Below are positions 1 to 61,608 of a stretch of 64,000 nt of DNA, one piece after another. The stretch is taken from positions 186,001 through 250,000 of the forward strand of contig OZ017761.1 in the NCBI GenBank assembly GCA_963969365.1, written 5' to 3'. The first letter of the stretch is position 1, and every line of letters begins with the position of its first letter. The notes beneath the pieces are model-generated. The model saw only the letters and a program-made list of their open reading frames with translations. It made no database searches and was not told the DNA's origin. The position numbers and the translations under genes were made by a program. This DNA is from Asterochloris sp. CNOR1 (taxonomy: Eukaryota; Chlorophyta; Trebouxiophyceae; Trebouxiales; Trebouxiaceae).

Positions 1-3000
1 CAGACAAGGTGCTAGCATACACCTAGCTCTGCAGTCTGGTCAAGACCAGAGCCCTGCACCTGAGCAGGTGCCATGAATCATCGTGCAACATGCAACACTC
101 ACGGCATGCACCTGCAGAGGCACGCACATGTTTGCACAGTTTCCATCACTGTTACACTGTTTGGGTCCTGGGTTTGAATGCGCAGCCCCCACTGCAACAG
201 CCATGACTTCTCTGTTTTGCAGCCCCTGGAGTTGAACCCTTGTTCAGGTCAGCATCGCACCTGTCCCGCCAAAAGGGCTTTTCTTCAGCCTCAAGGCCTT
301 TACCAGGGCTGCATCACAGCCAGGTCCACGCAGTTCAATGCGCCGCAGGTCGTGCACCCTGCAGACCAGGCGTGGCTGAGAATGTCGCAGATGGCACTGC
401 ACAGATGGCTGCCGGTCACTGGCTGGAGCATGACTGCTAGCCCCTTGTGGGACCAAGCACGCCAGCAGCTGACCATGACTGCTGCCGAGGGATCATCTGG
501 TGCAGGCCATGCTCACAAGCCATGTGCACACAACTGCTGGCCCACAGACGCCTGCAGAGCACCAACCTCGGCAACGACCAGCTTGGAACAGAGCAGCGCA
601 CCTGGTGACAAAGGTGGCGCCATGCTGCGCACTGGCCGCTGCCAGTACCGCCTTGGCCTCATGCCAGGCCCCAGGGTGCACCCACAGCAGGGCGTCCATG
701 GTGCCATCTGCAGCCTGCAACCTGTCAGCGTGAGGAACCTGCCTGCTGCTCGGTTCTGCATGGCTGGTGGCATCAGCAGCTGCCCGCTGCCTGCCTGTCA
801 AGGACATGAGCAGCTCTGCGGGGCAGAGCAGCTGCTGGGGGCTGCAACCTGGCCGGTGCAGCAGGAGCTCCACTGCCTGCTGGCCCTGGAGGACTGGCTG
901 TGATAGCCTGTCGCTCTGACCTGGGCTGCAGGGCACAGAAAGTGCAGATTGGGCATTGAGGAACGTCTAGGGTCTGTGAGGGGTTTCAAGACTCTGCACA
1001 AGGGCCTGGAGCATTGCGGGCTGCAAGAATCAGGCACTGGCCTGCCCACAGCTGCAGCATTTTAGAGCAGGCTCTGCTCATGCAACGACGGGGAGCTGAA
1101 CACATTGCCCAGACAGGCATGGCACAGCCATGTTGACCAGGGCAGCCATGCTGCGAGAGCCATGCCCCAGCTGCCAGATTCTTGCGCAGGAGCCAGGCAA
1201 GCCCCTACGCTCACCAGATCGAGCGCAGGAGCTGTTGCAGAGCCAGAGCTGTGCCCGTGAGCTGGATGGGCAGCAAGTAGGAGGCGTCATGCATGATGAA
1301 CTTGGTCTTGAGCTTCTCCAGCAGAGCCCGGCTGCCTAGGCCCTTTCCAGGAAGGCCTTCTGCCAGAACGTGGCCAAACCTGCGCATGGAGGCAAGCCCT
1401 GTGACAGTAAGGTTGCAGAAACATTTGAAAAGGCAGGCTCTTGCTAGACACCATCTGCCAGACGGTGTCAAACCTGCACAAGGAGGCCACTCCTGTGAGG
1501 GTAGATGTTGCATAAATGCTCAGCTGTTCAGGGCAGGCTGCGCCGTAGCATGGTGAGCAAAGTGCCGACTGACAAGATGCTGGCACCAGAACAATTTTTG
1601 AGACAGAGGACGCACCATGGCAGCAGCAGGAGGCACTACACATTCTAAGAAAACCTTGTCACAGTGCCTGATATATCTAGAGATATGGACTGGCCTTGCG
1701 CCATGAGCTGCACATGGCATGCCCAATCACAACTCTTTTTGGACCGCACAAGGCACCTGCCCTTCACCACACAGCATTCTGTGGCACCAAGCCCAGTACA
1801 GAGGACTCAGCCCTGTTGCATGAGGCATCCATGGGCAGTCATGCTCACCTTCGCACCATCTTCATGCGTTTGGCATGCCACACATGTGTCTCCAGCCGCC
1901 GCGGCGGCTGCTGGCAGGCAGTTGGCCTGTCAGCAGCAGTCATCTCAGTGTCAGCCAGTTCCCATGCCTCATGCTCAGAAACTGCCTGCGTGGCTGCCGG
2001 CGAGTCAGGCCCGGCCGCCTGCACACCATCTGTCTCTTTCATCTGAGGTTCAGAGTGCGCCTGTCTGGCTGCTGGCCGGTCAGCCCTAGTCATCTCATTA
2101 TGAGCCTGCTCCCCTGTCCCAATATCAGCGGTTGCCTGGCTGGCCCTTTGCATGCCATGTGCTTGAGCGTCCCCTGCCTGATCCTTGCTGCGATCATGGC
2201 TGGGCTCTGCGGCTGCAGCTGCTTCTGCTGCGACAGTCAGAGCTGGGCCCCCACCCTCGGCTGCTGCCTGTGCTGCCCCTGCTGCTGCTGCTGGCAGATG
2301 GTTGCCATCAGCTCGAGCCATGTCGGCTGCTGCAGCAGCAAGAGAGCGCGATACCCACTGGAACCTACGCCTGTGGTAGGCTGACAACTCAGCAGGTACC
2401 AAGCAGGAGCAGACACATACGGTTAAATGGATCTGTGAGCCTTAAAGAGCGCCTTGCCATGCTGAGTGATGGCAGCCAATGATGCTGATGTGACCACAAG
2501 CCAGGCCGCAGCTGTCTCACATGTTGCACGGGGTCAGAGTCAGGTGCCAGAACCTGCTTGGTGTTGGGACACCCAGGGGCCTACCAGTGGCTGCCTGGAT
2601 CATGCCCAGTGAGAGTAGGCCTCCATAGGCCCTTTGAGCCCTGACTGTTGTCAGGTGCACCTGCTGAGCCCAAGATTCCCAAGGCTGTATGACAGAGGCT
2701 CACTCAGAGGGGTGTCCATGCGATGGCTCAAACACCTTGCCTCACACCCTGCCCCTTCCCCAGCCAACTGCAAGGTGTGGGCTTGCAACCCTCACCCGCG
2801 TGAATTTGCTGGCAGCTGTTTGAGATCTGCTGCTGCCAACATCCAGGTCGTAAGCACATGGTCCAAGACATCACCTTGTGCACAGATGCTGCGCAAAAAC
2901 ATCACTAGTCTGTGTGGGGCATAGGCCTCACCATGTCACCAGGCTGGGGCGAGGCATACCAGGGCTCACCTGTCGGGGGTTCCTGCTGACAGCTCTCCAA

Positions 3001-3649: not shown

Positions 3650-3800
3650 GAAAACAGAATCAGGTTTTGTAGGAGGGTCGAGCTGGCCATGCAGGCATCT
3701 GGGCCCCAGCACTCCACCCCATCATAGCTCTGGTAGTCAGAGGCATGCCACTCCTGGAGGCTGCTGCTGCATTTGGCATGGGTTGACAATCTAGGACACC
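3650..3800. promoter_or_regulatory. Shared divergent promoter region, POP1 (-) / histone deacetylase (+)
   Basis: Only 151 bp separate the two inferred start codons, so this space must hold both 5' leaders and the core promoter elements. No clear TATA box was recognised. Confidence 0.5.
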
Positions 3801-6800
3801 ATGACAGTTAAACAGAAGGTTAATGGTGTCATGTCCTGTATCTCAACTGCATGGGGCTCCATGGTGCCTCCCCATGCCCTGCCTGACTACTTGTGACTCT
3901 GCATGCAGGTGGCCTATTTTTATGATGCAGATGTGGCCACTTATTACTATGGCCAGCACCACCCCATGAAGCCCCACCGAATCAAAATGACACACTCCCT
4001 CATCCTGAACTATGGCCTCTACAACATGATGGAGGTCAGCAGCCAAATACTGTTGTGCACCAGAGCTTGGGCCTCTTCCTGCAAACCCTTGATCGCTGAT
4101 CCAGCCTGCCTGCCTTGCCTTGAGACAGTCGGGCCTGATGGGATGCCTGCTGAAGGGAGACTCCCACAGCAAGATGGAGGGTGGCAGCCTTGGTGGACCT
4201 TGGTGCAGAAATGCAAACCACCCAGCACACCCTTTCTGTGCAGTGCACACCGAAATGTGCCTTGCCCATTGTACTGCATTCGTTGCCTTTTTCGGCCCCT
4301 GCAGTGCTGCAAGGCCCTGCCGGGCACCTGCCACAGCCACCCCCTTCACCTGGAGACTGAGCTACTGCTTGGTCCCCCTGCAGTGCTACAAGCCTCTGCC
4401 GGCCACCAAGGACGAGCTGGCCACCTTCCACAGCACCGACTATCTGGACTTCTTGCAGACGGTGACCACCGAAAACAAGGTTTGTAAGGCTCAGAGGCCT
4501 TAGTCTTGGAGGACTCAGGCTTTGAAGGCTGCTGCATGACAGCATTGGGGGAGCTGCACAGGCCAGGCACAAACCCAGGGTCCGAGCAGGCTTTGGCAGC
4601 CTTGTAGGACAGAAGACAGAGCAGGTGTTGCCGTCATGAGCTGCCTGCTGCATTGGCAGTCAGATGTCACTGCAGCCCAACTTCAAATTTGCCTTGACAC
4701 CTTTGACCTTGCTAAGTGCAGTGTGGATTGTGCCAGGGACCAGGGGCACAGCAGGGTTTGAGCTGCTGCAGGGGTGCAGGAACCAGCAGGGAAGCCACTG
4801 CAAGTCAGCCCTGAATGCTTGAAAAGCATGCTTCTCTGCAGGACCAGTTCCTGGGTGAGATGAAGCGCTTCTGTGTGGGAGAGGACTGCCCTGTCTTCAA
4901 CGACATGTACACCTTCTGCCAGGCAAGAAAGAGAGGCTCTTTTATTTGCCTGCCCGCACAAGGGCAAGATGGACTCATAAACCTTCTGCCTGGCAGCACG
5001 TGCGCAAAATGGACAGATAGACCCTCTGCTGCTCCTGGCTCCTCAGGGATCATGGCGAGGTGCCAGGGCAGTCCTTGACTTATTCTGCTGCAAGTCAACA
5101 AACTCTGCCAGGCAGAGCACCAGCAGGCCCCTGCACTGGACTCTTGCTCCAGCCCGCTCTCCTTGCTTGAGGCAATCGCATGCCTCAGCAGGGATTGTTC
5201 TGAGCCTGCACCCTGCACGGCCAAGGCGCCACATCCGTAATGACTTTGTGCCTGCAAGCTTTGCTGCTGAGACACGACCACTGCAGTGACAGTCACAGGC
5301 TGCACTGACCAACTTGCTCCTGTGCAGAAGTATGCTGGCGGCTCAATTGGCGGGGCAGTCAAGCTCAATCAGCAGGCCAATGATGTTTGCATCAACTGGG
5401 CTGGGGGTCTCCATCATGCCAAAAAGGCAGAGGTGCGGTCATCCAGCTGTCTAACTGCAGTTGGCTGTGGCTCAGCACGTGTTGACAGGTCCCCAGTCTG
5501 TGCAGCAACCTCATGCATGTCAGGGCGGCTGCACTTGTGGGTGGCACAGCACACGTCCTGCAGGTCCCCAGCTGTGCAGTAACCTCTTCACATATCAGGG
5601 CAGCAGCACTGAACTGGTGCCTTCAGCAGCCCTTGGAAAGCGCTGCCTCGAGCATGACATGCCTAGGAGCGCTGCCTTCAGCACCATGTGGTTCCTCATA
5701 GCTGCACCAAAAAGTGCAGTTGCGGACCTCAGTGTGTTTACTCCTGGCGGCTATGTCAGACATTGTCCTGGCTGGCCGTTTTCAGATTGGAAGGGCAGTG
5801 GTCGCCTCAGATCTTTGCCCTGCCTGCAATCCTCTGCCCTGCACCCTCAAATTGATGCCAAGTCAATACATGTATTCTGCCTGCAGGTCTCTGGCTTCTG
5901 CTATGTACTGCTGCCGTGCTGGTCCACCTGAAGCTGCCTGCAGGCCTGTTTGCTTCTGCTATGTCAATACATCTGCCATGCCTGCAGGCCTCCGGCTACT
6001 GCTACGTGAATGACATCACGCCGACCTGGAGCTGCCTGCACCCCTTCGCTTTCTGGTATGTCAAGATGTCTGCCATGCCTGCAGGCCTCCGGCTTCTGCT
6101 ATGTGAATGACATTGTGCTGGCCATCCTGGAGCTGCTCAAGTACCATGCCAGGTGTGCCTGGCCTGTCATGCATGCATGTGTGAGCCTGGGTCTCATGTC
6201 TGCATGCACCGGCCAATCTGAAGCTTTAGGCAGCTCCAAGTGCCACTCTCGGCAGTCACTGGCCGTGCTGCGTACTGCTGCAGCGCTGCAGATGTCATCC
6301 AGACATGGGACAATGTGCAGACATGGCACTGCCTTGTGCTGCTGAGCACATAGTGAACAAGGGCTCGATTGCCTGTGATGGCCAACATGAAGGTGCCTGA
6401 GTGTCAATCGCCTCTCGGCAGCCAATGCCCCTGCTGGCCAGCAGGTGTCGATCATGCCTGCACAGTGCGTTGCCATGTGCTGTCATGCACACTGTGACCC
6501 TCTGTCCCAGTTAGCACAAGCCATCTTGACGGTGCTCAAGGATCAGCGGCCTTCCTGTGGTTGCACGTGCTGCTGTCTGCAGCCTGCAGATGTCAGCCAT
6601 GCCTGCACAGGACGCCGCCCTGTGGTGCTAGGCACTGTGGAAGCCTCTGGGATGCGCTGATGCAGGTCTTGATCTGCAGGCAGGGCTGCATCAGTGCTGC
6701 CATGCACACGCTGTGCTGCACATCTGCCCCACTCTGCACCCGTCATCTGTTGCTCCCGTCTGCTGATGCACAGACGGCACCTTGGACGTCCAGCAGCAGC

Positions 6801-9800
6801 ACCATCTGCTGATGCACAGACGGCACCTTGGATGTCCAGCAGCAGCAGCAGCAGCAGCGCTGAGTGACACTCTGCAGCATCATGTGACGCTTGCAAAACC
6901 TCTTACACTGACGTTGATATTAATGATTGCAATTGGCCTCTGTATAAACAAAGGCTGCTTGTGGTTATCCTCCTGTTGGCTACCCGCAGGGAGCCTCATC
7001 CCCCTGTTTCTGGTCCTTGGCTGCGTGCTCCTCATCGGGGCCAACTGCAGAGCAGCACCTTGCATGAGCCTTGCCTGCCTTGACTGCCTGCAGGGAGGCT
7101 CGCCTTTTGTTTGTGACTCATGGCTGTATGCTCCACAATCGAGCCACCTGCAGGGCAGCACCTTGTCTGAGCCTCAACTGCCTGCAGGGTACTGTATGTG
7201 GATATTGACATCCACCACGGCGATGGTGTGGAGGAGGCTTTCCTGACGACCGACAGGGTCATGACGGTCAGCTTCCACAAATACGATGGCGAGTTCTTCC
7301 CAGGCACAGGACGCCTCAACCAGATAGGGCATGACAGGTGCGGTACTGGTCCTCTGGACTGATCCAGGGCTCCACCTGCATGTGCTGGCACAGGGCGCCT
7401 TGATCAGGTAGGGCATCACGGGCCTCCACACGTACAGTGAAGCAAGTTGCAGGCAGCCCCATGGATACAGTCATAACTTTTTGTAAGCCTTTTCCTGCAG
7501 AGGCTGCAGCCAGCAAGCCTTGCGGCTGAGCAAGCCATCACCAGCAAGTTGAACAGGTTTGCCCTGCCCTGCAGAGGGCGCGGCTACGCCATGAACATCC
7601 CCTTGAACGATGGCATTGACGATGAGTCATATGAGCAGCTGTTCAAGCCCATCATGCGCAAGGTGGTTGAGGTCTACAAGCCAGAGGTCATCGTGTTCCA
7701 GAGTGGTGAGTGCGTGTTTCATGTTTGTGGTGCTAGTCTAGGGTCAGGGAGTACGCTGTCTCACGCAGGAAGGATGCTCTGTACCTGAGACTGCATTGCC
7801 ACCTCCCTGCAGCAATAGGGGAATTGTGGCACAAACCAGAGGGGTGAGCCAGGCAGCTCTGTGCAGTGGGACTCAGGACACTGAAGCCCTGTCCTGCCTG
7901 ACCTCTCATAAGGGTCCTGGGGGCCGAGATGCTGGGGCCTGTTAACCCCAGCCTCTACCCTACACGCACCAGTCCTCTCTCCCCATCATTGCAGGGGCTG
8001 ACTCCCTGGCGGGCGACAAGCTGGGGGCCTTCAACCTGAGCATGCGCGGCCACGCGGCTGCCCTCATGTCCATGAAGGCATTTGGTATCCCCATGATGGT
8101 CTTGGGGGGTGGGGGCTACCGCATCAGTAATGTGGCGCGCTGCTGGGCCTTTGAGACCGGCCAGATCTTGGGTGGGTTCTGTTGCGCGCTGCTGAAACAT
8201 GCCAGGCAGGTGCTCTGCAGACCCAATGTGCTCTGCAGACCCAAGGCGGGCTCTTTGCATAGCTTGCACGCTGCTGAGCCTCCAAGACGGTCCAGTCGCA
8301 CGCCGGGGGACGAGAACAAAAGGCACCTTTCTGTAGCTGCTTACGCTGCTGCAGGCATGGAAATGGACAACCAGCTGCCCCCAGACCCCTGGCTGCACAA
8401 CTATGGCCCCGACTTCCACCTGCACATCCAGTCGCGCACCGGGAAGGAGAACCAGAACACCCCGGAGCGTCTGGGACGCCTGCAACAGCACGTCATAGAA
8501 AACCTCAAAAGGTGAGCGGGGCTGCGCAGAGGGGAGTGGGGCTTGAGAAGCTTCTCAGGGAAAAGCAAGGTTGCTGGGGGAGGAAGGGCTGAACATGGCC
8601 ACTGGCGTATGGGGTTCCTGGAGCACGATTCTCTGCACCTCGCTGGACATCCACCTGTCCTGTCTGCCCTGGCGTGGCTGAGAGTTGCCCTGTGGCTGTG
8701 GCTGGGGCTTGATGCCTGCCAGATGGGCTTTTAACTGCGCACACCTGTACCTGACCTTGGTGGCTGCCAGGGTCAGACATCCTGCAGGCAGTGCCTCTAT
8801 GAAGGTAACAGTGTGGGCTGGCATTCGACAGAAGTCATCCGTGTGAGAGAGATGTGTTGAAGACCTGCAGCAGCTCCTCATACAAGCTTCCGAAAGTGAG
8901 CTTTTGCAAGGCTTTATTGCGATAAGGGGCTGCTTGCGCCCTCAGCATGCCATTCAAAGCTGAAGGCACCACAACACATACGCTGCATGATTGAGGTGAC
9001 CCGCGTGCTCCTTGATGAGCGCGCCTGTGATGCGATGGGAGTGGATGATCTGCAGAGCTCTCTTCATTGGAACCTATCTCATAGCTCCCTAATGTCCCTC
9101 TCCCCTACCATGCCCCTGATACAGCTGCAGTGGAATGTCTGCAGCCCCCTCGTCATTGCAACCTGTGGCCAGCTCTCCCATGCATGCCTGTGCAGGAAAA
9201 CGCCCCAGCACGCCCTAAACCCTGCAACGGCCCTGCTTTTGAAGGCCCCAGCATCCCCTTGAAAGCATGTCCTGCTGTATTGTATGTCTCACGGCGCCGT
9301 TGGAAGCACATGCTGATAGTGACTGAAACTGATGCCCCTTGCGCAGGATCCAGGCTCCTAGTGTCCCCTTCCACGACCGTGCCCCTGATGCGATGGCAGT
9401 CGATGACATGCACACCACGCTGCCCACAGCTGGGGACGACACCCTCCCCGCTGACGACGTCGAGAGCAAGCAGGGGCGCAGCAGGATGGACATTGACAGC
9501 AATGCAGGTGAGGGCTGGCACTCCCAGGCAAGCACCCTGGCTGATGTGCTCCCAGCTGCAAGCAGTGGGTCACTCAGTGGGAGGGTGGAAGTAGGCCAGG
9601 GCGCGGGAGAAGGGGCACTGGCAACAAGACTGATAAGAGAGCAGCACTGTTAATCAAGCTTGTGGCAGATGTGCTCTCAAATGCAAGGAGGAGGTCACTC
9701 AGGTTTACTGGAACCGGGGTGCGAGTAGGCAGGGGCGTGGAATGAGGCAAACAGGCAGCATTTGACCTAAAGCCTGCACCGCCAGGCAAGCCTCGTGGCG

Positions 9801-10888: not shown

Positions 10889-11056
10889 GTGTGAGATGCA
10901 TGCTGCCCAACTGACCCCCGTGCGCCCTGCTGCTTTGTGAGTTTGATTTATTTCATTTTACAGCAGATGTCAGAATGTTGATTTCAAGGGAACCTGAGGT
11001 GCCAACTCTAATCCTAGGAGTCCGGACTGGTTCTCTGCGTCAGTCAAGCCTCCTCT
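10889..11056. other. Convergent 3' flanks of HDAC (+) and RNase M5-like gene (-)
   Basis: A 168-bp gap between two stop codons, locally AT-richer (gagtttgatttatttcattt near 10940). It must hold both 3' UTRs. No separate gene seen. Confidence 0.5.
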
Positions 11057-17975: not shown

Positions 17976-20900
17976 TCATGTCTTCCTTTTCTTAAATCTG
18001 TCCAGTGCGCCCATCGTGTCCTGCTCTGTGCCGCCAGCAGAGCCAAACACAGCAGCTGGCACTGCCTTCTCCTGCAGCCTAAATTCTCGCGGAGGGGATG
18101 CAACCGCAGTTGCTGCAGCAGGGGTTGCCTCCTCAGCTTCCTCTGCTTCATCCAGATCCAGTTCCATTTCCTCTGGATTGGCTGGGGCAACAGCTTTTGC
18201 TGCTGCATCTGCAGCCTGCCCTGCTGCGTCCTCTTCCTTCCCCTGCTGGATGGTGCCTGCAGCAAGGAGGATGTCATCAGTGATAGCTGCCAGAAGTGGA
18301 CCACGTTTGCAGCCCCTTGCATGGTGCTAGGGCAGGAGCATTGCATCCAATGCAAGACAGTTCATGCTGAATCAGACTCAGTCGCTATGCCCCAGTTGCA
18401 GCAGAAGCTGGCCAGCAAGCCTCTCCCAGGCTGAGTGCTCCACTGCAATGCCAATCTCCTGTCCATAAACACAAGGTTCGTTGCATGCCATACATCCCAG
18501 AGGTGATGCTATTCCCTGAGCAGCTCAGAGAACAGACCACACTGGACGTCACAAGAGCTCACCTGCACTGACAAAGTTGGGCACCCGTGTGCCAGGCGCT
18601 GCTGCAGGGCCAATCTCCTCTTCCAGTGCGGCCATGTCATCGAGCTTGCGCTTGTTGCCCACACCTGCACCTGCTTCCACAGTGCCTGCAGAGAGTTGAA
18701 GGGGATGAGGTCACCAGCTTGGCTTGCCAAGCTGTCCAGAAAGCTATTCTGGGCTGCCATGCTTTGCTGAGTCTGCTGAGCTGCAGGTGACACGTCAGCA
18801 GACGCTGTGCTGCCATGCACATACAGCACAGCATGGCAGCCTGTGACATCATCTGTCCCATCTGGTCATGCTTTGCATCGCGCCATGCTATGTCGCGCGT
18901 GCCCTGGGGTAAGCACAATCATGATCCAGCACAGTGCGACCACACAGTGCCAGTGAGGGCCATAGCTGTGCAATCTGAGGCCTTGGTGGCACACACAAGC
19001 CCCATGAGTAACGAGCTGTGGCTGCCACACTTCACAACTCAGTTGGGGTCCCACCCAGCATAACTCAGCGTTCTACTTGTCTGACAGCATGTCTCCCGAT
19101 TCATACAGTTTCAGTGAGACGCTCTGTCAGATGAGACCCAACCCTGCAACGATATCACGCTTGCCCCACCAACTGCTCTGGCTGTGAACATGATGCCGGT
19201 GTTGCAGTGCACCTAGATACGCCAAAGTTTTAATGGCTCTCCAGCTGCACTATACAGGTGCCGAGCCCCGTGCAGGCGCCAAGCTGGCTAATTCAGCAGC
19301 ATCTGCACAGTCATCTCAGTCTTACATTGTAACCCAACTCAGCTGAAGAACAAGAACAGCCCCACAGGCACTGTGCGTGCACTTGAGAAGGCGCTGTAGT
19401 GCATCTGCAACAGCTCGCTGTGCACGGGATCAACCAGCATGGCGCCATCGGCCCAACATCATGACGACCATGCATCTCTGCATCCTCCCCATTGCTGTCC
19501 GAGGTAATGCACACCTGTGACTGCGGGCGCTGTGGTTGCATCGATGATGGTGGTGTTGTAGTGTGTCTGGGAGAAGGAGGCCGCCACAGAACGCTTGATG
19601 CGCAGCATCTCTCTGAAGGTGTCCTCGTTGCCATGAGCCACCTACAAGCATGTGCAAATGGAGAGGGCTTGCCTCATGCACATAGCAAGAGTGCACTGCT
19701 GGGGCTGAAGCTTACCATGAGACATGTGCGCCATGGCATCTGGCACCGGCTTGTCAGGGCAGCACTGCATGATGCGTAGGTGGGACCCCCAATGAGGTGC
19801 CCAGACGTTATCGCAGGAGCTGAGCAAAACGACCTGCTGAGGGTATGGTGCCCCATCAGCTGACCATGACCTATTGGCCCCACAAAGAGGTGCCCAGCAG
19901 TCCTGCCCTCCTCCAGGGCAGTCCTGCCCGCTGTGCTGCTGCCCGCAGTTTTATTAGCACCAGAAATCCATCACCCGGCCACCAACACACAGTGCGCTGT
20001 ATGAGACCATGCCCTGGCCCACAGAGACTTGTTGCACCCACCTCAAAGGCATTCCAGTCAGCCCAGAAGCCAGGGTCCCGGCGCGGGTCGGCCATGCTGG
20101 AGGCGTGCACATAGATGGCGCGGGCGCGGTCGACCTCCCCAAGCCCCCGCTCCACCTTGGCATACCTGCAGATATCACATGCTGGTCAGAGGGGGCTCTG
20201 TAGGCATGGCAAAGTCTTGTTTTGATAGTCTCTGAAACCTGGGCTGTGAGGCCTGGGCTCTTGGCCTGACCTAGTAACAAGACGTAGGGTTGCTGCTGCA
20301 CCAGGAGCAGCTTCTGATGTGCCATGGCAGGTAGAGCACTGCACATAACCTCCCAGAGACGCAGCTGGGGTCCTCCTTGGCCTGGTTTCACTTTGCAGCA
20401 GACCTGCCAACATGCCATGGCAGATCACAAAGCCATGGTGCTCAGCACAATGCAGAGACAAAAGTCATAGAAGCCGGGCAGCACCCCTGTGGGCAGAGCT
20501 TCTTGTAGCAAAGTGGGGCAGCGCACTATCAGACAGAAGACCTTCTGCTGGAAAACACACTAGCAGAGACACGTCACGTGTTCAACCAGCCTGACAGCAG
20601 CAGACTGGCGAGATGAACTCCACCCTGAGGCAGAGCCTCTTGCAGCACTGCACAGCCAGGCACAGATGGAGGGCAGCCCTGACGCTGGAATGGACTAACG
20701 TGATTCACTGCCTGTTGGCAGCAACTTGGTGAGGTCTTGCCCACCTGAGGCAGAGCTTCTTGCAGTCCTCGTCAGGCAGGCCGTAGGGCTCCTCAGCCTC
20801 GATTGCCGACTCATAAATCTCCCGCACCTGCAGGGTGCAAAGGCGTGGCTGCTGGCTTGAGTCTGCAAGAGCAGGCAATTGCAGCTGGACACCCCAGGCG

Positions 20901-23900: not shown

Positions 23901-26900
23901 TGTTGCAGTAGCGAGTCGACACCCACCTTGTCAGGGTCCACCGTCTTGACTGCCTCGGTGTAGGTCAGGATCTGCTTGGTGGGGTTCCCGGTGAACAGCT
24001 TGACCCGCTTGTGCCACTCATGCACCGCGTGGGGGTTCTGGCGCAGCATGACGCTGCTCAGCAGCTCTGGACGCCGCTCAATGAGGTGCTCCAGCCGTGC
24101 CAGCCTGCGCATCAGCACAGTCGGTGTTCACACACAGGGTTCAGTTCAGGTGCTGTCAGGCCTTACGAGACAAAGATAGGGTTCCAGGTGCAGAACGCCG
24201 ACCTGCACAGCCACAACAAGACGCAGCATTTGGGTTAGGTCTATATCAGTGCGGCTTGCAAATAAGCCCCTGCTGGTGCTGCTCGGGACTGCCATTCACA
24301 CAGGTGCGCCAGCCTGCACAGGAGCAGAACGGGTGTGTACTTGCAGGAGTAAGGGCTTGCACAGCATGTACCAAAGGCTGCTGTGAGGCTTGCCATAGAG
24401 GCAGATTGCTTCAGGCGGAGGACGCCGGCCTGCACAGCGCAAAGAGGATGCAGGCAGAGTGAGAAAAGTGCCAGTACAGCTGCACAAACAAGCCCCTCCT
24501 GGTTAATCTTGAGGCGCCCTCTGATCAGGTGATATAGGTGGACCAGCCTGCACAGCACTACAGCCGGGCTTTGCCAGCATGACCATTGGAAGCACGGCAC
24601 AGCAGGCACGCATCAAGCTATGGTGCAGACTGCCACAGAGAGGCTGCCAAGCCTGCAGCTAAGGCGCAGCATTGATGGTGCATGCTGTCAGCCTGCACAG
24701 TACAACAGGCTCAGACCCATCAGTCCAGCAGGGTCAGATGCTCCGGCAAGACAGCCTTCAGACACCCTGCTGTACGCACATGCACAAGCAGTCTAGGGCT
24801 GTCAGTCAGGAACTCCAAAATAACCTGTTACTAAGATGGGCCTACACAGTGCAGACTGCACAGTCCAGTCTGACAGGATGCCTGTGCAGCAGCAAGCCCA
24901 TTGTGGCGCTCTACTTGTGACATGTTGCCTCGCCCAAAGCTGTTGCAGCAAGCAGCTTTGCACCTGAGAGCTGAATGACCCCACTGCCACCATTCAGCGC
25001 ACCCACCACAGAGAGCTTGACATACATGCTTGGCTGCAGCAGGGGTGGTGAGCCTGTATCTGAGCTTGAAATGTTGCGCATCACTGTTCAGCAGTGCACA
25101 ATGCCCCACATGATGCAAAGGCCTTACAGAGCACCAAGTCAGTGCTGCTCTTCACTGCAGTGCTGTGCCTGCACCTTAGCTCAATGTCCCGCCCATCATC
25201 GTTCAGCAGGAAGTCCTCCCCGTCGCCCTCGTCCTCCTTCTGCTCCTCTTCTGTCTCGTCCTCAGGAGCATTCTGCAATACCACTGCAGCCTCAGCAATC
25301 ATTTTGCAAAGAAGCCTGTGTATTGCAGAGCCAATGGAATTATGCCAGCCCTGACAATGAGACCACATCAGCTGCCAGCCTCAGACGTGGAGCATCTGTG
25401 CTACCAGGCAACCCCACCGCAAGGGCTGGCATGCCAGGCAGCACCAGAGATGAGAGCACAGTCTGCGTGCTGTGGCGGAGCAGACCCAGCAAGGAGCGCC
25501 TAAGTGCACTGTCTTGCATGCAGAGCTGCCGCCTGCAGGTGCTGAGGATCTACAGTGCTGTGCATGCTCAAGCAAAATGTGCGTAAGTTGGCTGCCCAGG
25601 TGATGCAGCATCCCTACACTCCCCTCCCACGCAGCCATCCTGCATGCAGCCAGATTGACACAGGTGCAACAGCCCTGCTGGCATGTCTGCTAATACTAAC
25701 AACAGCTTCTCAGACTCAGCCATCTTCTATGCTGGACTTAGATTCTGTGTGTTGAACAGCAAGCTGAAACTGCGCACAGTGCACATGATGAGGGCTTGCA
25801 ATGCCTGCCAATACACGAGCCAGAGCCCCCACCTGCATCTTATAGCTCAGCAGGCTGGACTCAAACTCCGTCAGCGTGTCGAAGAGGAGGCTGAAGTCAC
25901 GCACAGTCACCACCGTGGTCAGCCCCTCCTCATACACGTCCCGCGCTTTCTCAATGAGGCCCCGCCGTATGTAGTAGTCTGACAGGCTGGTCCACAGGCG
26001 CCCAACCTGCAGGCAGAGTGCAAAATGAAGGTGTATAAAGTGCTTTTAGCATGCAAATGTCCCTGCAGAATGGCTTGGATGTGATAGTGCGACAGGCTGG
26101 TCCACAGGTACCCCAGCCGCAGGCACCGAGTTAGTGATATTGTACACATTGCTTGATGCAAAGCTGTCCCAGCACAAGGAGCTGCAGAAGGTGATTGTCT
26201 GACAGGCGGGTCCACAGGCGACTCGCCTGCAGGAGCGTGGTGATGAATGCTGTTGCTTGCCTTAGGGGTGACTTGCGCATGCAGGCAGGCTGGTTGCAGG
26301 CCGCCCTCCTGCATGGGGCGAGCCAGCAGCCATGCATCTCACTTGCGCAAGTATCAATTGGAAGGGATGCCACCTCACCCACGCACATTGGATATCCTTG
26401 ACTGCAGCAAGGCGTCCATGTTGACGCTGTTGATCTCTAGGGCATACCATGGGAGAGTGGCCAAGCAGCCACTGGCAGCCATCCTTTCAGCTCTGCGCTC
26501 TGACAGAGGCCAGCTCCACCTCAGACACACAGCCACCCGCACACTCCAACATGCATAGCAGCCCATGCATAGGGACCAGCAAACATGAACAGGCAGCCCA
26601 CCTCATCTGTGAACTTGCGGATGCCGCTGCGCAGGACAGCGTCCACATTGATGCCCGTGACGTCGCCGGGGTGGCGCGTGATGATGTGGCACAGCTCCAG
26701 CCACAGCTGGTGCTTGCTCTTACCCTCCAGGCTGCGGAAGGTGTCCTCATTCACCACCTGGGCCAGCAGCCGAGCAGCCTCACCCCACGCCTCCTGCAAG
26801 TGTGAGAGGCAGTGGGCACCTGCTCGCAGCTGCATGGTGCAGGGGCAGACCTCAGGGCTCAGTAATCACCTGTTTGGCAAGGAGCCGACTTCAGGGCTCA

Positions 26901-31900: not shown

Positions 31901-33053
31901 CAAAATTGGAAAGGACCGGACGGGCGTGCTTGCTGCCATGGTGCTTAGCTGCTGTGGGGCCACGCGGCAGGAGATCATTGATGACTATGTAAAGTGAGGA
32001 CCCACCATGATTGCAGGGCGTTGTGAGCATCTTCTCAAGCAGTTTGCCTCGCCACTACCATTCTGGCATCCTTGCAGCACAACACCCTCTACACGGTGCT
32101 GCGGCTGTGCATTTTCAGCTCACCTTGGCACCAGATCGGCATCCTCTCAGTGCCCTGGCAGCACATTGCCCCGCTCGCAAAGCACCATCATAGCACCTTT
32201 GCTTGCGTGGATCACCTTCACCGAGCACCAGATGATGCAAGAGTGGCTGGTTCTGGTGCCTGGACGGCGCAGCTTTGCAGTCTGTCTTAGCCATGGTGCA
32301 TGCAAGCTTGGCTCAGCTGCAGGCCATGTGCCTCCCAGGCAGGAGACATTGTCTGGGCAGGCGGCTGTCCAGAGGCCATCATCGTGTGCCGCTTTGCAGC
32401 GGGGGTCACACAGGCACCTTCGATACCGATGTGACAGTGCACCGCCACTGTGACTCAGTTCACAGATGCTCGAGTCTCTGCTGCCGCCTGCGGGGAGTGC
32501 TCACACAGGCATTGATGTTGATGGGTGCTGACCAGGCTGGATGCAACAGGCCAGGCTGTGACCTGCAGGTCTGACGATGTGCAGGAGGCCGCTGCAAAAG
32601 TGATCAAGCATGAGAAGGCTGTAGCCAGGCTTCTTTGTCAAGATTGGATTCTGATGCCTCAGCTGCTGCCTGCAGGTCTGCCAATGTGCAGGAGCTTGCT
32701 GCGGAAGTCATCAAGCTCCTGCTTATCGAGCTTGCTGCGAAAGCCATCAAGCGTGAGAAGGCTGTGGCCCAGGTGGGATGCTAAAGGCCTCAGCTGCTGC
32801 CTGCAGGTCTGACCAGGTGCAGGAAATTGCTCTGGGGGGCATCGAACATGACAGGGCCCTGGCCAGGCTGGACACCGTAAAGTTTGCAAAGGCGCCGGCA
32901 GAGGCCATGGCGCAGACTCTGGACTACCTTGATCGCCGCTATGGCGGCGTCAAGGGGTACCTGTGCGCAGTAGGCTTTAGAGCGGATGCCCAGAATCGGC
33001 TGTTCAGGGCGCTGAGTGCGCCAGTCCGCTCTCCTGGTGGACCAAAGCTCTGA
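28910..33053 (+). CDS. Y_phosphatase3 / IphP-type tyrosine (dual-specificity) phosphatase, complete
   Basis: Cys-dependent phosphatase of the bacterial IphP-like family; the substrate is not predictable. Ten exons join in frame: 28910-28946, 29052-29138, 29211-29296, 29558-29659, 30055-30131, 30665-30772, 31076-31131, 31530-31555, 31854-31993, 32807-33053, giving 321 aa. Landmarks: RIVRSACPTGAS near residue 43, GITHLIDLRSDQER, NRYYQAMIWHMPYL, then the CX5R loop FFCKIGKDRTGVLAAMVLS with Cys209 and Arg215, then EIIDDYV and a C-terminal helix region LDYLDRRYGGVKGYL. The residue before the catalytic Cys is Phe instead of the usual His, so activity may be altered. Intron 2 begins with GC (29139). 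Exon 10 is preceded by two echo copies that stay in frame. Confidence 0.85.
32566..32772 (+). repeat. Two upstream copies of the phosphatase last-exon start
   Basis: The real exon starts at 32807 (SDQVQEIALGGIEHDRALAR). Copy A (from about 32571) reads SDDVQEAAAKVIKHEKAVAR and copy B (from about 32685) reads SANVQELAAEVIK with an internal partial repeat and ends KREKAVAQ. Each is preceded by ctgcctgcag and is in the same phase as the real exon. Copy B ends in a CAG|GTGGGA donor, so it could be spliced as a cassette exon. Confidence 0.85.
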
Positions 33054-34364: not shown

Positions 34365-44600
<10,236 letters not shown>

Positions 44601-44966: not shown

Positions 44967-45753
44967 ATGGAAGCAGGGACCATAGTATGCAACAATGACC
45001 TTCCTCTGTATCTAGACCCTGCTTCAAATGTCCTTGTCACGAAACTGGAGATAGATCGTCTCCAGCCTTGCTGCTCCTGGTGGCCCTTCTCCCTGGTATC
45101 AAGACAGGCCACGGCAGCTGCTCCTGACACTACTCTGGCTGTCGTTCCGGACCAGGTTCAACAGGAAAACACAGCTCATGGGTCTGAAGTACCTGGAGCT
45201 CACTTTAGAGGAACCAGAGGCGCCTGCAGACTCGGAAGGAGACTACTCAGAGGAGGAGTCCTCTAAGTTTTGGCACTCTCCCTGGTCCCGCTTTCAGTGT
45301 GACCGCATCTGCATCAGGGAGAGGGTGACAGCAGGGACCCCAGTGCACGTTGTGTTCCACTACTATGGCACGTTGCTTCTGCTGGCTGCTGCCCTGTGTC
45401 CATGCCCATTGAGCATGCTGTGACCACTTCCTTCACCAGCATGCTGAGATGCCAGCTGCCCTGCAGACAACTACTGTGACTGTGCAATGGCCTTTGTCAA
45501 GCGTCAAGAGGCTGAGGCCTACTTTGCACAGGAGGAGAAGAACACCCTGAAGTGTGTCCAGCAATGGAAGAGCCATTGGAAGGCTGCTGTTCTATCAAAG
45601 GAGGATGCATTCCACTGCGATGCGCTGGTCTGGGAGGGCAACGGTCGCACTGGGAGATGGGAGAGGCCAGACAAGGGGGACACCTGGTGGCTCATGACAC
45701 TGTGCGTGAAGCAGGTGGCGGAGGGCAAAATCCAGACTGCAGAGTCGCATTAG
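44967..45753 (+). CDS. Unrecognised small protein gene, copy 1
   Basis: I do not recognise this family. Two exons are supported by comparison with the neighbouring copy: an exon ending at 45367 (MGLKYLELTLEEPE, then a Ser/Glu-rich acidic patch, then CDRICIRERVTAGTPVHVVFHYY) and 45467-45753 (CDCAMAFVKRQEAEAYFAQEEK, then a Trp-rich end with RWERPDKGDTWWLM). They join in phase across an intron that begins with GC (GCACGT). Upstream, an ATG at 44967 opens a frame similar to copy 2, but relative to copy 2 there is a 2-base loss near 45136 that puts it out of frame with the downstream part. So either translation starts later, for example at 45178, or copy 1 is also damaged. Confidence 0.5.
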
Positions 45754-45984
45754 ACTTGGGAATCAGACCCAAGTGACAAGCCTCCATGCTGGATGCTCCA
45801 GTGTCGCAGGAGCCTAGTCTGCAGTGCCACTGGGCATGGACATGGACATGTACCTGGAGACCCAGAGTTGAATGACCATGATTGTCTGTGTTGTCCTTTT
45901 CTCCAGATCTCTGCATATGTGTTTAAGAATAGTGGCATGCACACAACAGAAAACCACAGATCTGATCTGTGAGCCCACTCGTCC

Positions 45985-46690
45985 TTGTCAAATTATCGAT
46001 CATTCCAGTCCTATTGCTTGTTCCTGGACTTCTTCTTGCAGTCAAAAGAGGCCATGGCAGCTGCTCCTGACATCATTCTGTGGCTGTCATTTCGGGCCAG
46101 GACCAAGAAGACTGGGCTCCTGGGTGTAGAGCACCTACAGCTCACTTTTGAGAAACCAGACAGGCCGACAGACTCAGAAGGGCATTCCTCAGAGGAGGAT
46201 TCGCCTGTGCCTGCGCACTCTGCCTGGTCAAGCTTTGAGTGCAACCGCATCTGCATCAAAGACAGGGTGACAGCTGGGACTCAAGTGCATGTTGTGTTCC
46301 ACTTCTATGGCAAGTATCCTCTGGTGGCTGCTGCTCTGTGTCAGCGAGCATAGTGTCTGTCCACATGTCTCACAGCATGTTGAACTGCCAGCTGCCCTGC
46401 AGACACCTACTGTGACTGCGCAATGGGCTTCATCAAGCGCCAAGAAGCAGAGGCCTACTTTGCACAGGAGGAGAAGGACACCATAGAACGTCTTGAGCTC
46501 TAGAAGAGCTATGCGGAGGCTGCTGTTCTGGTAAAGGAGGATGCGTGCCACTGCGAGGCGCTGGGATGGTGGGACGGGAGATGGGCAAGACCCGACAAGG
46601 GGGACAGCTGGTGGCTCAAGACACTGCGGGGTGAAGCAAGTGCCGGAGCGCAACAGCCAGGATGCAGAGTTGCATTGAGTTCTGTTGATG
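45985..46690 (+). pseudogene. Tandem copy 2 of the unrecognised gene, truncated
   Basis: Matches copy 1 over both exons: 45985-46309 (EAMAAAPDIILWLSFRARTK, EDSPVPAHSAWSSFECNRIC, VTAGTQVHVVFHFY) and from 46403 (CDCAMGFIKRQEAEAYFAQE). The intron donor is a GC site (G|GCAAGT). A stop at 46501 replaces a conserved Trp codon, ending the frame about 60 codons before the end of copy 1, although homologous sequence continues to about 46677. Copy 2 keeps an open N-terminal part that copy 1 has lost, so neither copy is convincingly whole. Confidence 0.6.
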
Positions 46691-46914
46691 AGAGCCGCAT
46701 GGCAGGCCATCATGCCGGATGCTTTGAAGTGTTCCTGTGTGAAACACACTTCTGCTTTAGAGTCGTGCAGACAATCACCTCGTCTGAGCTTAGGAATGTC
46801 TGGATGCTGAGGCCAACTTAGGCAAGCAGTTCATAAGGGAGCTGGACAGGATCAACAACCATTACCATGAGGCTCTCATCCCTGTGGAAGGTTACAGGAT
46901 CATTGTGAGGTTAC

Positions 46915-47777: not shown

Positions 47778-50700
47778 ATGGCCCAGGCCTTCCTATGGCT
47801 GCTCCTCCTGGGCGCAGTTGGCAGCTTCACCCTGGGATTCAGCTGTGGGGCCGTTACGTTTGCCCTGACATGGGGCCCGGTGATTGGAGCCAAGGTCTGT
47901 GTCTGCTAAGGCATGGTCTCTGTTCACAGTCTCACGACGTTACCTCTGTCTGGTCCCTGCAGGCCCTGTCCCACTTACGATGCACTGTCATTGGATGTGT
48001 GTGCATACTCATTGGCGCCCTGGCGTTCCAGCACCAGGACGTCCAAGCCTATCTAGGCGTTGCCCTGCCTGGCAGCTTCACGAACAAGCCTGACATTGTG
48101 AGGCACAGCTCAGACAGCTGCACCTGGTTGGCTGCAGAGACATACCTTGCTCCGTGCCTGCTGCTGCCCTGATGTATCTGCAGCTTCAGGGCCCCAGCTG
48201 CCATCAGGGGTCTCACATGCTTCTGGCACCTTGCTCACCTCTCAAGTGGCAGCATGTTGCACGGTGAAGCTTGCAGGGGGCAGGGCACTGCACAGGCTGC
48301 TTGTACAGCAGACGGCAGCTTTCATAGTTGCCTGCCGATGCCTTGCTGCTTCAGACCACCTTGTCGTTGGTGGCCGATCTGGCTGAGCGATTCCGTGCGC
48401 AGCAGGGTGCATGTGAGTCATGGCACCGCAGAGGCTGCCTGCAGCCTCACACAGCGTGCCATTGCACTGATGCACCGCCGCACTGCAATTGCAGACCATC
48501 TTCTGCTGTGTGGCTGCCACGCCTGGTGGCAGAGTCACACACCAGAGGCCATTGCTCAGCACGGCACTGCAGATGTCATGCACACCACCGCAGCCTCACC
48601 AGCTTGCACTTGTGCTGAGCACTGCCTTGCTGCTGCTGCACATCAGCTTTCACTGCCTGGCAGCCACGACTTGCTGAGGTACTGCCCGGCTGCAGCTGTG
48701 AACCTCATCTGCTGCGTGGCCGCCATAGCATGCAGAGGCACTCGTTTGAGGCGGCTGCAGACCTTCTTGCTGTGTAGCCACAGCATGCTGAGGCACTGCC
48801 TTGCTGCTGCTGGCACTGCAAACCAGTCTCTGCTGCATGGCTGCCGCGCAACACGGTGAGGCAGCACAAATGCCGCATGCAGCACCACAAGCCATCTGCA
48901 GCCTGCACAGCAGTGTGGTGAAGAGCTGCTGTGCTGCTGCTGCAGACCATCTTCTGCTGCGTGGCAGCCACAGCTGTGAGTGGAGCGGTGCTGGTGTTCT
49001 TCGGCTGGCATGGCATCCCTCTGTCGCCCTCCCAGCTGGTCGGTGAGCGTGTCTGTGCACAGCTGATCACCGACTTGGGATTGTCCACGTGCTGCTGGCC
49101 ACTCAATGTCACCTGATAAGCTGACAGTGTGCATTTGCAGCCTGACTGTGCCACCATGCTGTCCTGCTATGAAGCTGGGCAGCGTGAATGTTAAGCAAGC
49201 ACGTGTGGTAGGCAAGGCACAATAGGGGCTGTACTCCCAACTGCAGGACAAGGCGGGGACATTGCTCGGCTGTCATCCTCTTTCACTTTTTGAGGAGTAC
49301 TAGCCCCTCGCCATCCCTACTGCAGCTGCGGCCCTGCTTACCTGTCATCTTCTCTCACTCTTTTGAGAGCACTCACCCCTCGCCATCCCTACTACAGCTG
49401 TGGCCCTGCTTGGCACCATCCTGCCCGTGCATGCCGGCGGAGTGCAGTGGGGAATCCGCAACGTGCCCAGCTTCCCCTTTGTCACCGGCGTGGCCAAGCA
49501 ACTTCTGCTCACGATCGTGTCTCCCCTGTGGGCCGCCATCCTGGCTGCGCTGGCCTTCTTGATCCTGCGCAGTGCCCTGCTCCGAAGGGAGCACAGTCTG
49601 CACCTCACCCTGCAGGTGAGGGTGGGTCTGGGGGCTGTGATACTGTGAGGGCTCTTGAGCAGCAGACTGCAGTGGGAAGGAGCACTACCTGAGCCATATC
49701 CTGTAGCGTTGCAGGCCCCCATGCTCCTATTTGGCTGGATCTGATCTCGCTAACTGCCCAGCAGCTCTGGCCCAGATGCCAATGCCTGCATGGCCTGCAG
49801 GGTATGGCCCTGGTAGCTGAGCCGACCTCTGCCTCAGTCGTCTGCACTGCTGCCGCCGTGCAGCATGGCACATGCCTGCATCACTGCTTATGCCTGCATG
49901 ATGCCTCTGCCCTGCACATCATTCCCCCTGGTACCTGTGCCGACCTCTGCCCCGGTCTTCTGCACTAGTGCTGCAATGCGTCGCTGCTGCTTGTGTCTGC
50001 ATGATGCCTTTGCCCTGCAGGCCATGCCTTTGTGGGCTATGCTCAACTTTGTCGTGGTTGCCTGTGCCATGCTGACATGCTTGGCACCGTCCCGGACCAC
50101 ACTCCTGCTATACACTGCGCTCACCATGCACGTGATTCCCCTATAAAGCCTGCCAGCATTTCTGCTGTTGAGCGCCACACCATCCGGCACCTGTCATTCT
50201 CACCAACTGGCCTAACTGCGCTGCAGGCCATGCCCTTTCTGGCCACGGTGACCTTTACTCTGGTGGTCTGCACCATTGCCAACATGCTGAGCACAGTTCA
50301 GGACCACTACGTGCACGTGCTGAACCTGGACGCCAAAATGGTGATCCTCATCAGCGGCGCGGGCGGGATTGTCTGCAGTGTGGGACTGGTTGCGGCAACG
50401 CCGATGATTCACAGAAAAATGGAGGCGGCCCTGCAGTCGGACAACCAGCAAGACAAGCTGAAGGCTTCGGGCAAGGTGCGGCAGCTGCGCACGAAGTTGG
50501 CGGGGGGGGTCCGTCTGCAGGCCTCCCGGCAACTTCATGATCTGCTGCAGGCCTGCTTGCAACGGCAGGTGTGGTGCAATCGCTCTGCCGCTGTTCAACT
50601 GCCTGCAGCAGGCTAGCATGCACCAGCAGGTGGGGAGTGGCTGCTCAGAGGCCTTGCTGCTTGGGAAGGGATTTGCTGAGCTGGTCGCACTGATGCCGCT

Positions 50701-55267: not shown

Positions 55268-55718
55268 GGCAGTGCAGAGAACAGCATTCAGCTGCAGCGT
55301 CCAGTAAAAGCAGCCTTGCAGTGTCCAGCACAGCGAGATGTGGCCACCAGCTCTGCAGAGTTGGGGCAGATTTGCTTCTAATTCTGCGATTGTGGCACTG
55401 TGAAGGTCCGCCGCAGTAGCGCTCTGGACCAAGACACAAACATCTCCTTGTGCTGGGGCAGCCTGCAGTACTGCTAGTTGCACCATGATTGGAGCCATGT
55501 GGCCCATGAAATATTTTGCCCAATGCGTGCCCTCCCACTGTCAGCACATGAAAGCACTTCTCCATGTAGTGGATGCAATTGAGACACCATCTTAGAGTGG
55601 TACCTAAGAATCTGTGACGCCCCATGATAATCTTGCTGGGATTGCATTTTCCGAATGCACGGTGCAATATGATGATGATTCTCCAAAAATATCGTGACGG
55701 CAGCCCAGCTGGGCGTAC
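55268..55718. other. Spacer between the two PTB-like paralogues
   Basis: Its first ~80 bp (ggcagtgcagagaacagcat onward) match the sequence just after paralogue 2's stop at 61608. So the duplicated unit includes the 3' flank. No gene seen in the spacer. Confidence 0.6.
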
Positions 55719-58700
55719 ATGCTGATGCAATCCTTCCAATGGCTGCTGATTGTAGGCGCATTTGCCAGCTTCTTCTTGGGCTTTGGCTGTGGGGCTGTCA
55801 CTTTTGCCTTGACATGGGGCCCAGTGATCGGAGCCAGGGTCTGTGTCTGCTGTGGCATCCTACCTACTCACAGTCCCATGACAACACCTCTGTCTGGTCC
55901 CTGCAGGCCCTGTCTTACTCGAAATGCGTTGTCTTTGGATGTGTGTGCATACTTTTTGGTTCCTTGGCATTTCAGCAGCAGGACATCCAAGCCTTTCAGG
56001 GCATTACCCTGCCTGGCAGCTTCACGAACAAGCCTGACATTGTGAGGCACACCTCTGGCAGTTGCACCTGCCCGGCTTGATACAAGTGCACTCCCCTGTG
56101 CCTGCTGCTGCTTTGATGTTTTGGTGGCCCAGATGCTGCAGCTATTGGAGTGGTCCAGGGAACAGGGGTTTCACATGCTTCTGGCACACTGCCTGATACT
56201 CGAGGCCTTATTCACCGCTCAAGCGGCAGCATGTTGCATTGTATAGGTTGCAAGGGGCAGGGGACTGCAAAGGCTGCTTCATGGCAGACTGCAGCTTGAA
56301 CAGTTGCCTGCTGATGGTTTGCTGCTTCAGACCACCTCCTCATGCGTGGCTGACCCGGCTGTGTGTCTTGCATGCGCAGCAGGGCGCACGTGAGGCCTGG
56401 CATCGCAGAGGCTTCGCAATTGCAGACCACCTTCTGCTGCATGGCTGCCATGCCTGGCAGTAACAGTAGCACACAGCAGAGGCCATGCCATGGCAGGCAC
56501 TGCAGATGTCGTACGCACCATTTGCAGCCTCACACCAGCCTGCACTCGCGCTGAGGCACTGCCTTGCTGCTTCTGCACATCAGCCTCTGCCACCTGGCAT
56601 CCACATCTTGCTGAGGTATTGCCCAATGACAGCTGCATATATTTCTGCAGGATGACAGCCAAAGCTGTGCGGATACACTGCTTTGCTGTGGCAGCAGACC
56701 TGTTCTGCTGCATAGGCACAGCATGCTGAGGCACTGCCTTGCTGCTGCTGCCGCTGCAAACGACTTCTCCCGCGTGGGTGCTGCGGCAGGCAGTGTAGGA
56801 GCACAGAGGCCCCATGCAGCCCCACAAGCCATCTGCAGCCTGCACAGCAGTGTGTTGAGGAGCTGCTGTGCTGCTGCTGCTGCAGACCGTCTCCTGCTGC
56901 GTGGCAGCCACAGCTGTGAGTGGAGCAGTGCTGGCATTCTTCGGCTGGCATGGCATCCCTCTGTCGCCATCTCAGCTGGTCGGTGAGTCTTGCTGACCAC
57001 GTTGGAGTCTGTTCACGCGCTGCTGGCCAACCATTGTTGCCTAATGAGCTGACGGTGGGACCTGCAGACCTGACTTTGCCAGCACGCTATCCTGCTATGC
57101 TGCTGAGCAGCATGTAAGATGAGCGTAGCACAGAAACAGTCCAGAGGGCTGGACCTAGCTTTTGAAAATGCACTCACCCGTCACCACTCCTACTGCAGCT
57201 GCGGGCCTGCTTGGCGCCATCCTGCCAGTCAACGTGGGCGGGGTGCAGTGGGGAATCCACGACGTGCGCGGCTTCCCCTTCGTCACGGGCGTGGCCAAGA
57301 AGACTCTGGCCACGTTTCTGTCTCCCCTGTGGGCCGCCATCCTGGCGGCGCTAGGGTTCCTGACCCTACGCAGCGCCCTGCTCCGAAGGGATCACAGCCT
57401 GCACCTCACCCTGCAGGTAGGGGTGGGCCTGGGGGACATATACTGTGTGGGCTCTTGGGCAGCGGACTGCAGCGGGGAGGAGCACAGCCTGAAGCACATC
57501 CTATACGGCTGCTGCTCCCATCCAGCTAGACCCCATCGCCCCAACTACCCAGCAGCTCTGGCCCAGATGTCAGTGCCTGCATGCCACGCAGACATGCCCA
57601 ATACTGTGCTGACCTATGCCCCAAGCTTCCGCACTGGTGCTGCCATGCATCGCTGCTTATGCCTGCATGATGCCTTTGCCCTGCAGGCCATGCCTTTGTG
57701 GGCTGCGCTCAACTTCGTCGTGGTTGCCCGCTCCATGCTGACATGCACTGCACAGTCCAGCGCCTGGCTTGCTCATGACGCCTGCCAGCATTCCTGCTGT
57801 CGACTGCCACATCATCCGGCACCTGTCATCCTCACACACCGGCACACCTGCGCTGCAGGCCATGCCTTTCTTGGCTACGGTGACTATCACTCTGGTGGTC
57901 TGCACCATCGCCAACATGCTGAGCACAGTCCAGGGCCACATTGCCCGCATGCTGCGCCTGGATGCCAAGATGGTGATCCTCATCAGCTGCGCCGGCGGGA
58001 TTGTCAGCAGCGCAGCAACGTTTGTGTTCACGCGGCTGTTTTACAGGAAGATGGAGGTGGCTCTGCAGATGGACAGCCAGCCAGACAGTCTGAAGGCTTT
58101 GGGCAAGGTGCGGCAGCTGTGCAGGGGGTTAGGCGAGGGCTGTCATCTGCAGGCCGCTTGGCAAGCAAACAATCTGCTGCATGCCAACTTGCAACATGAG
58201 ATGGTGCTGTCGCTCTGCCACTGTTTATTTGCCTGCAGCAGGTTAGCATGCACCAGCCCGTGGGGAATCGCGCCTGCTGCTCTGGCCTTGCGACTGGTGC
58301 ATCCACTATCGATCCTTGTGACATGATGCTGCAGAACATTAGTTCAGGGAGGACCAGCCGCCCAGGCAATTTTGAGGAGCTGGGGACCCTCGAGCTGCTT
58401 GCAGAGGGCAGAGGCGCAGTTGGTGGAGCTGCTCAACAGCATGCTCTCCCCACAGCACCACTTCATCTGTCACAAGACGCTGAACTGCAAAGAGCCTGCC
58501 TGCAGAACGCTGAGGAGCCGCTACCTGAGCAGTTCGAGCAGCTGGGCCTAGATGAGACGGCGCAGGGGACCACCACCGGTTTTCTGAAGCACTTCCTGCA
58601 GCATGACGTGCATGAAGCCATCCAGCAAGACAGCCGGCTCAAGATCATGCAAGAGTCGGCTGAGGTGTTCAACCAAAACACAGAGGCGTGCTTTCAGGGT

Positions 58701-61608: not shown

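Follow-up and report, generated by a model that had tools for sequence, protein, structure and literature searches.

Do the introns of this Asterochloris genome contain decayed copies ("echoes") of the adjacent exon edges and their splice sites, and if so, how did such copies arise? The window is the whole 64,000-nt stretch of DNA analysed here (bases 186001-250000 of contig C16), taken from a genome of 56.4 Mb in 21 contigs. For Asterochloris glomerata, a genome size of 56 Mb with an average of nine introns in each gene is reported (PMC6652019).

Exon models and genomic samples

One gene of the window, encoding a class I histone deacetylase (HDAC), was modelled by hand as nine exons (3909-8511). 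The rebuilt protein is 96% identical across the entire query to a JGI model named with Astpho2, a prefix that presumably denotes Asterochloris; the next named matches, at 70% and 64%, are from Trebouxia. The HDAC exon 4842-4922 ends at a GC donor (gcaaga). At the end of this exon the Astpho2 protein carries other residues, which match the translated intron preceding the next exon; they probably reflect an error in that gene model.

The Pfam profile PF00118 gave 67 exon matches genome-wide, of which 57 are in eight fetched TCP-1 loci. These loci were modelled to 55 exons, nearly all with TGCAG acceptors and GT donors; the ten matches beyond the eight loci and two of the seven in locus L030 are outside the models. 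Profile searches for proteasome, HDAC, AAA and DEAD proteins were used for the choice of loci, and no counts depend on them. An exon finder combining codon periodicity with splice matrices was trained on HDAC and the eight TCP-1 loci. With one locus left out at a time, 55 of 64 exons were recovered exactly. Inside the gene spans it made 63 predictions, eight of them without a matching model (several of these in profile gaps), and on the antisense strand it made none. Its predictions comprise 38 exons of the window and 87 from other pieces of the same genome, 200 kb in total (20 pieces of 10 kb from 17 contigs, at round coordinates chosen by hand and not at random). Together with the TCP-1 loci this gives the full set of 182 exons.

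For each exon, the 45-nt head and tail were compared with the exon's own flanks, and the match was ranked against flanks from other loci; p≤0.01 was considered positive. Flanks shorter than 100 bases were omitted from the exon-edge tests of the window, predicted and pooled sets.

Copies of exon edges in adjacent introns

In the pooled set, 37 of 180 heads match their own upstream flank and 35 of 181 tails their own downstream flank, while the controls (wrong side, mid-exon, inverted) yield 0-3 positives of 143-181. Thus, about one fifth of the exon edges of this lichen-type green alga have a decayed copy of themselves in the neighbouring intron. After masking of CTGCAG, CAGGTG and CTG/CAG-type words, 34/180 heads and 32/181 tails are retained, with 0-4 positives in the masked controls. 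Shared CTGCAG-rich composition was rejected as an explanation on the basis of this masking, the other-locus nulls, and the wrong-side and inverted controls. Duplication of whole exons was rejected as well, given that mid-exon segments are positive in 1/143 and 2/143 cases (4/143 and 2/143 after masking).

The same pattern holds in the subsets. In the window, 14/38 heads and 8/38 tails are positive on their own side, compared with 0/38 heads downstream, 2/38 tails upstream and 1/31 mid-exon segments on each side. For the 125 predicted exons the numbers are 27/123 and 21/124 (controls: 0/124 heads downstream, 2/123 tails upstream, 2/100 and 2/100 middles); the predicted exons outside the window contribute 13/85 and 13/86, so that the phenomenon, originally described for the window, extends beyond it. 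In 47 introns of HDAC and the TCP-1 loci (8 of 55 were excluded for lack of adjacency in the profile), positive matches (p≤0.01) were obtained for 12 heads of following exons and 14 tails of preceding ones, and 23 introns have at least one edge echo. Other segments give 0/33, 0/33, 2/39 and, for the middle of the next exon, 5/39; the last is a less clean control in this smaller set and counts against the explanation preferred below.

According to the original prediction, copies upstream of an exon repeat the acceptor and the exon start, and copies downstream repeat the exon end and the donor. This rule is confirmed by the near-absence of wrong-side matches and by the identity of the copied splice sites: 0.54 for the last and 0.47 for the first six intron bases, against 0.27 and 0.29 in slid controls. 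Exon-edge and splice-site sequence are copied together, as in a duplication crossing the junction. The comparison that the prediction called for, with mid-exon segments and unrelated exons, came out in its favour, the edge matches being far above both. Two further details stand in part. The predicted spacing of 45-185 bp covers some of the range, with the strongest copies at 74-342 bp. The statement that the copy matching the protein family always adjoins the exon body finds support from homology in HDAC; for the other genes, the finder selects the coding copy by construction, so that its position there is set by the procedure and is not an independent test.

Echoes and related duplications catalogued in the window (shift, distance between the copies in bp; percentages, identity)
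Feature	Span	Strand	Details
Acceptor-side echo 4296-4328	4296-4407	+	HDAC exon 4384-4479; edge copy 4375-4407; shift 79; 88%
Acceptor-side echo chain 5853-5915, 5954-6026	5853-6123	+	HDAC exon 6085-6152; tandem period 97; 85%
Donor-side echo 7385-7422	7301-7422	+	End of HDAC exon 7188-7337; shift 84; 79%
Donor-side echo 20620-20661	20620-20781	-	End of predicted exon 20745-20827; shift 120; 79%
Acceptor-side echoes 26077-26125, 26177-26233	25957-26233	-	Predicted exon 25833-26006; shifts 110/220; 80%/75%
Acceptor-side echoes 32549-32605, 32654-32716	32549-32847	+	Predicted exon 32807-32969; nearer echo 79%
Donor-side echo 34837-34908	34502-34908	+	Predicted exon 34365-34577, first ArsA-type ATPase gene; shift 335; 79%
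Acceptor-side echo 35813-35885	35813-36074	+	Predicted exon 36024-36149; shift 189; 74%
Donor-side echo 39625-39690	39451-39690	+	Predicted exon 39361-39515, second ArsA-type ATPase gene; shift 174; 77%
Two-copy 72-bp tandem duplication across acceptor	49263-49406	+	Exon start 49398; echo edge 49326
104-nt insertion relative to paralogue, itself a local duplication	49802-49905	+	Spacing 118
Old acceptor-side echo 50011-50070	50011-50276	+	Predicted exon 50227-50475; common to paralogue
Paralogue counterpart of echo 50011-50070	57677-57736		Before exon 57859-58107

The neighbouring ArsA-type ATPase genes (34365-43300), which we take to be GET3-like, have the same exon echoed on the donor side in each, at different spacings (335 vs 174). 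Elsewhere in the window, 45086-45797 and 46029-46723 form a direct duplication of about 0.7 kb with 78% identity and no insertions of at least 15 nt between the copies.

Possible birth, decay and shape of the copies

The window contains two paralogous genes (48-53 kb and 56-60 kb) whose alignment has an identity of 76-79%; we call them PHO4-like provisionally, from a Pfam match below the cut-off and the reading of the translation. Six insertions of at least 20 nt between them were tested. The longest two, of 119 and 104 nt, duplicate flanking sequence (p=0.01); the other four do not stem from local duplication (p 0.09-0.88), which counts against the explanation preferred below. Within the 119-nt insertion is the extra unit of the head-to-tail duplication that spans the acceptor at 49398. 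In the paralogue the unit is present once, at 57199 (predicted exon 57199-57416), and this homology sets the exon start at 49398. Since the two 72-bp copies are 81% identical, somewhat more alike than the paralogues, a gain in the first gene is more likely than a loss in the second, and the site would then record the birth of a junction duplication. The ends of the unit, read by eye, carry TGCTCGGC and TGCTTGGC, which would be consistent with slippage on a short repeat.

The intronic copies have decayed, as had been predicted. Differences between echo and exon at the three codon positions amount to 0.24, 0.25 and 0.27 for 30 acceptor-side echoes and to 0.26, 0.19 and 0.25 for 22 donor-side ones, so that no coding constraint is seen by codon position in either group. 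Among edge-reaching echoes, AG is retained in 9 of 17 (9.8 expected) and GT in 4 of 11 (6.8 expected), about as neutral decay predicts, and, with a spacing divisible by three in 13 of 43 echoes, there is no frame preference. In general, the echoes have no sign of retained function. Coding-constrained copies, such as duplicated mutually exclusive exons, were rejected on the flat codon positions, with 49979-50078 as a possible exception.

The region 49979-50078 and the matching part of 57648-57744 are 91% identical between the PHO4-like paralogues, while the adjoining stretches are 71-77% identical, and the echo that it contains, before a PHO4-like exon, has an intact acceptor in both genes. It may represent an alternative exon and an exception to neutrality. 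This region is one of two observations that would agree with selection on the echoes as functional alternative exon edges or decoys. The other is that splice-site scores are plausible for 11 of 28 edge-reaching echoes, seven of which equal or exceed the real site; by these scores the suggestion that echoes supply potential decoy sites holds as a prediction from sequence. Such selection is nevertheless very improbable for the echoes as a class, as it disagrees with the even codon positions, with splice dinucleotides at or below the neutral expectation and with the absence of a frame preference.

BLAST self-comparison may lose pairs near the main diagonal, and therefore the ages of repeat pairs were estimated by an ungapped shift scan. 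At scores of at least 100 it yielded 203 pairs, after exclusion of the 44 of 247 pairs below 66% identity and of low-complexity segments. Full-length tandems, with the unit equal to the spacing, account for 34 of the 203; such head-to-tail units are found at 49263-49406 and 5926-6113. For exon-ascertained echoes, intron-side homology exceeds the 95th percentile of controls in 13 of 43 cases (0.30), and score-matched simulation of neutral tandem decay predicts from 0.39 (indel/substitution ratio 0.6) to 0.70 (ratio 0.05); it supersedes a simulation without score matching, which predicted 0.63-0.94. The low intron-side homology and the small number of full-length pairs count against a simple tandem picture. 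Moreover, certain blocks of high identity end abruptly and are separated by unrelated sequence (L014 1656/1740 and window 4296/4375). All this would suit templated insertions, that is, nearby blocks of 30-70 nt pasted in direct orientation. However, repair by template switching is expected to produce both orientations and inverted copies are at the background level, the duplication at 49263-49406 is head-to-tail, and a high indel rate could mimic blocks (0.39 expected at ratio 0.6 vs 0.30 observed). Hence we regard templated insertion as quite unlikely.

The positions of the echoes bear on yet another origin. In the intron gain of the Rogers type, an intron is born when a piece of exon with AGGT in it is duplicated in tandem, which leaves a tail copy at the intron's 3' end and a head copy at its 5' end. 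Exon sequence is indeed included in the local duplications, and two of the 16 head echoes are closer to the far end of the intron. But the other 14, like all 13 tail echoes, are closer to the edge that they copy. The introns measure 237-1067 nt; the distance between the start of a head echo and the acceptor that it copies is 79-266 nt, that between the end of a tail echo and its donor is 74-325 nt, and neither kind sits at the opposite intron end. This origin was rejected, its probability being negligible.

Local duplication and the peak at junctions

Local direct repeats are present away from junctions too. Exact 14-mers recurring at 20-300 bp in the window include 23 direct and 2 inverted cases. 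Of 2859 tiles, 5.2% have a match with a score of at least 90 within 150 bp, 2.4% at 150-300 bp and 0.2% at 3 kb, the background being 0.14% for inverted matches and 0.14% for another locus. Positive tiles make up 51/469 in introns, 13/47 and 14/47 at exon edges and up to 5/43 in exon interiors. The position profile over the 182 exons has its maximum at the edge and reaches the background 40-60 nt into the exon; with 40-nt tiles and scores of at least 85, 10% are positive at edges against 1.5-2.6% in flanks, a ratio of about 5. The repeats that had been tied to splice junctions do peak there, and are not confined to them, as they occur inside introns and in other tiles of the genome. Dispersal of the introner kind was rejected, since matches are local and those to other loci are at the background, both in the tiles and in the echo ranking.

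Probably, the echoes are remains of ordinary short local duplications across splice sites, silent because the copy adjoining the exon was kept in splicing. Short direct duplications, mostly spaced at 70-300 bp and some truly head-to-tail, would arise in many parts of the genome. One entirely within an exon would alter the protein and be selected against. One spanning a junction would produce two edges, and splicing at the edge of the exon body would leave the mRNA unchanged, so that the event would be silent at birth and could drift to fixation. The exon copy would then stay under selection and the intronic copy would decay neutrally. Due to this one-sided divergence, exon-edge pairs would remain recognisable for roughly double the time that intron-intron pairs do, and junctions would stand out. 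The molecular step may be replication slippage or microhomology-mediated tandem duplication. The positive tiles in exon interiors count against this explanation.

How much of the peak is due to visibility depends on the ages of the pairs. The numbers of pairs are 7 at identity of at least 92%, 17 at 87-92%, 22 at 82-87%, 42 at 77-82%, 55 at 72-77% and 60 at 66-72%. Young pairs (7/203) are too few for a constant rate of duplication, a further point against the preferred explanation, and a past wave is the plain reading. In simulations, freezing one copy instead of letting both diverge increases visibility 2-fold for uniform ages, about 3.4-fold for a linearly rising age density and about 6-fold for a quadratically rising one. 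One-sided decay and the rarity of young pairs thus yield a peak of the observed size, so that targeting of junctions is not needed, and much of the approximately 5-fold peak can be attributed to visibility.

Age-matched counts were compared with expectations whose low and high values correspond to the unit length taken as the matched length or as the spacing, respectively. We observed 3 echoes vs 1.3-3.1 expected at t≤0.12, 5 vs 2.0-5.7 at t≤0.15 and 13 vs 3.4-10.0 at t≤0.18. With the matched length, the excess is 2.5-fold at t≤0.15 and 3.8-fold at t≤0.18, which counts against the visibility explanation and, along with the sharp edge peak, would fit splice junctions being hot spots of duplication (through the CTGCAG-rich acceptor, R-loops or chromatin) or places where echoes are retained longer. 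With the spacing, however, 5 echoes are set against 5.7 expected and 13 against 10.0, and one-sided decay with a rising age density alone suffices for the 3.4- to 6-fold range. At matched age the excess therefore lies anywhere from none to about four-fold, according to the way in which the unit length is counted. Exon echoes are also more widely spaced than intron-intron pairs (median 159 vs 101), which counts against the preferred explanation. We consider hot spots unlikely. Of the proposal that a recurrent local process targets or tolerates junctions, recurrence and tolerance stand; targeting is not demonstrated, repeats of the same kind being found elsewhere. A wider reading is that a past genome-wide wave of 50-200 bp duplications, perhaps favoured at junctions, built much of the intron DNA and left exon-anchored halves as datable fossils; we put it forward tentatively, as doubtful but worth considering.

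Local direct duplication is a usual source of short insertions. The copies in this alga differ from short tandem-duplication insertions in general in being old, decayed and anchored on exon edges. A tandem duplication across the boundary between an intron and an exon, with doubled splice signals, is reported for a potato RdRp gene (PMC4974935), which is the arrangement seen here; that report concerns a single event in one gene, with a new intron, whereas in the alga about one fifth of the edges have decaying intronic copies and no new intron is shown. Novel intron positions in Drosophila were ascribed to tandem duplication and intron sliding (PMC2891723). There, too, coding sequence and splice site are duplicated locally and one copy is intronic, but a few selected cases are reported, in which intron positions change, and in the alga they stay. 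Introners (PMC9860276) resemble the echoes as a repeat-related change of introns; they are reported to insert into many genes, unlike the echoes, which match their own exon but no flanks of other loci. Among the papers listed by a limited search of CC-licensed PMC articles, which is no proof of absence, junction-crossing duplications appear as single cases, with no genome-wide account of them. The exon edges serve as a fixed reference by which decayed intronic duplications can be recognised, so that a single genome provides a fossil record of intron growth. Under the preferred explanation, real splice sites should be accompanied by a burden of old decoys, a prediction that RNA data can test.

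Multi-copy tandem arrays with units of 42-77 bp were observed in the arbitrarily placed pieces L009 (2229-2369 and 7215-7398), L003 (6177-6394) and L011 (5914-6109); they are consistent with widespread local duplication. In L024, a five-copy array with a spacing of about 64-76 bp (1982-2303) enters the start of a TCP-1 exon and offers the clearest example, beyond the window, of an acceptor echo built in several steps.
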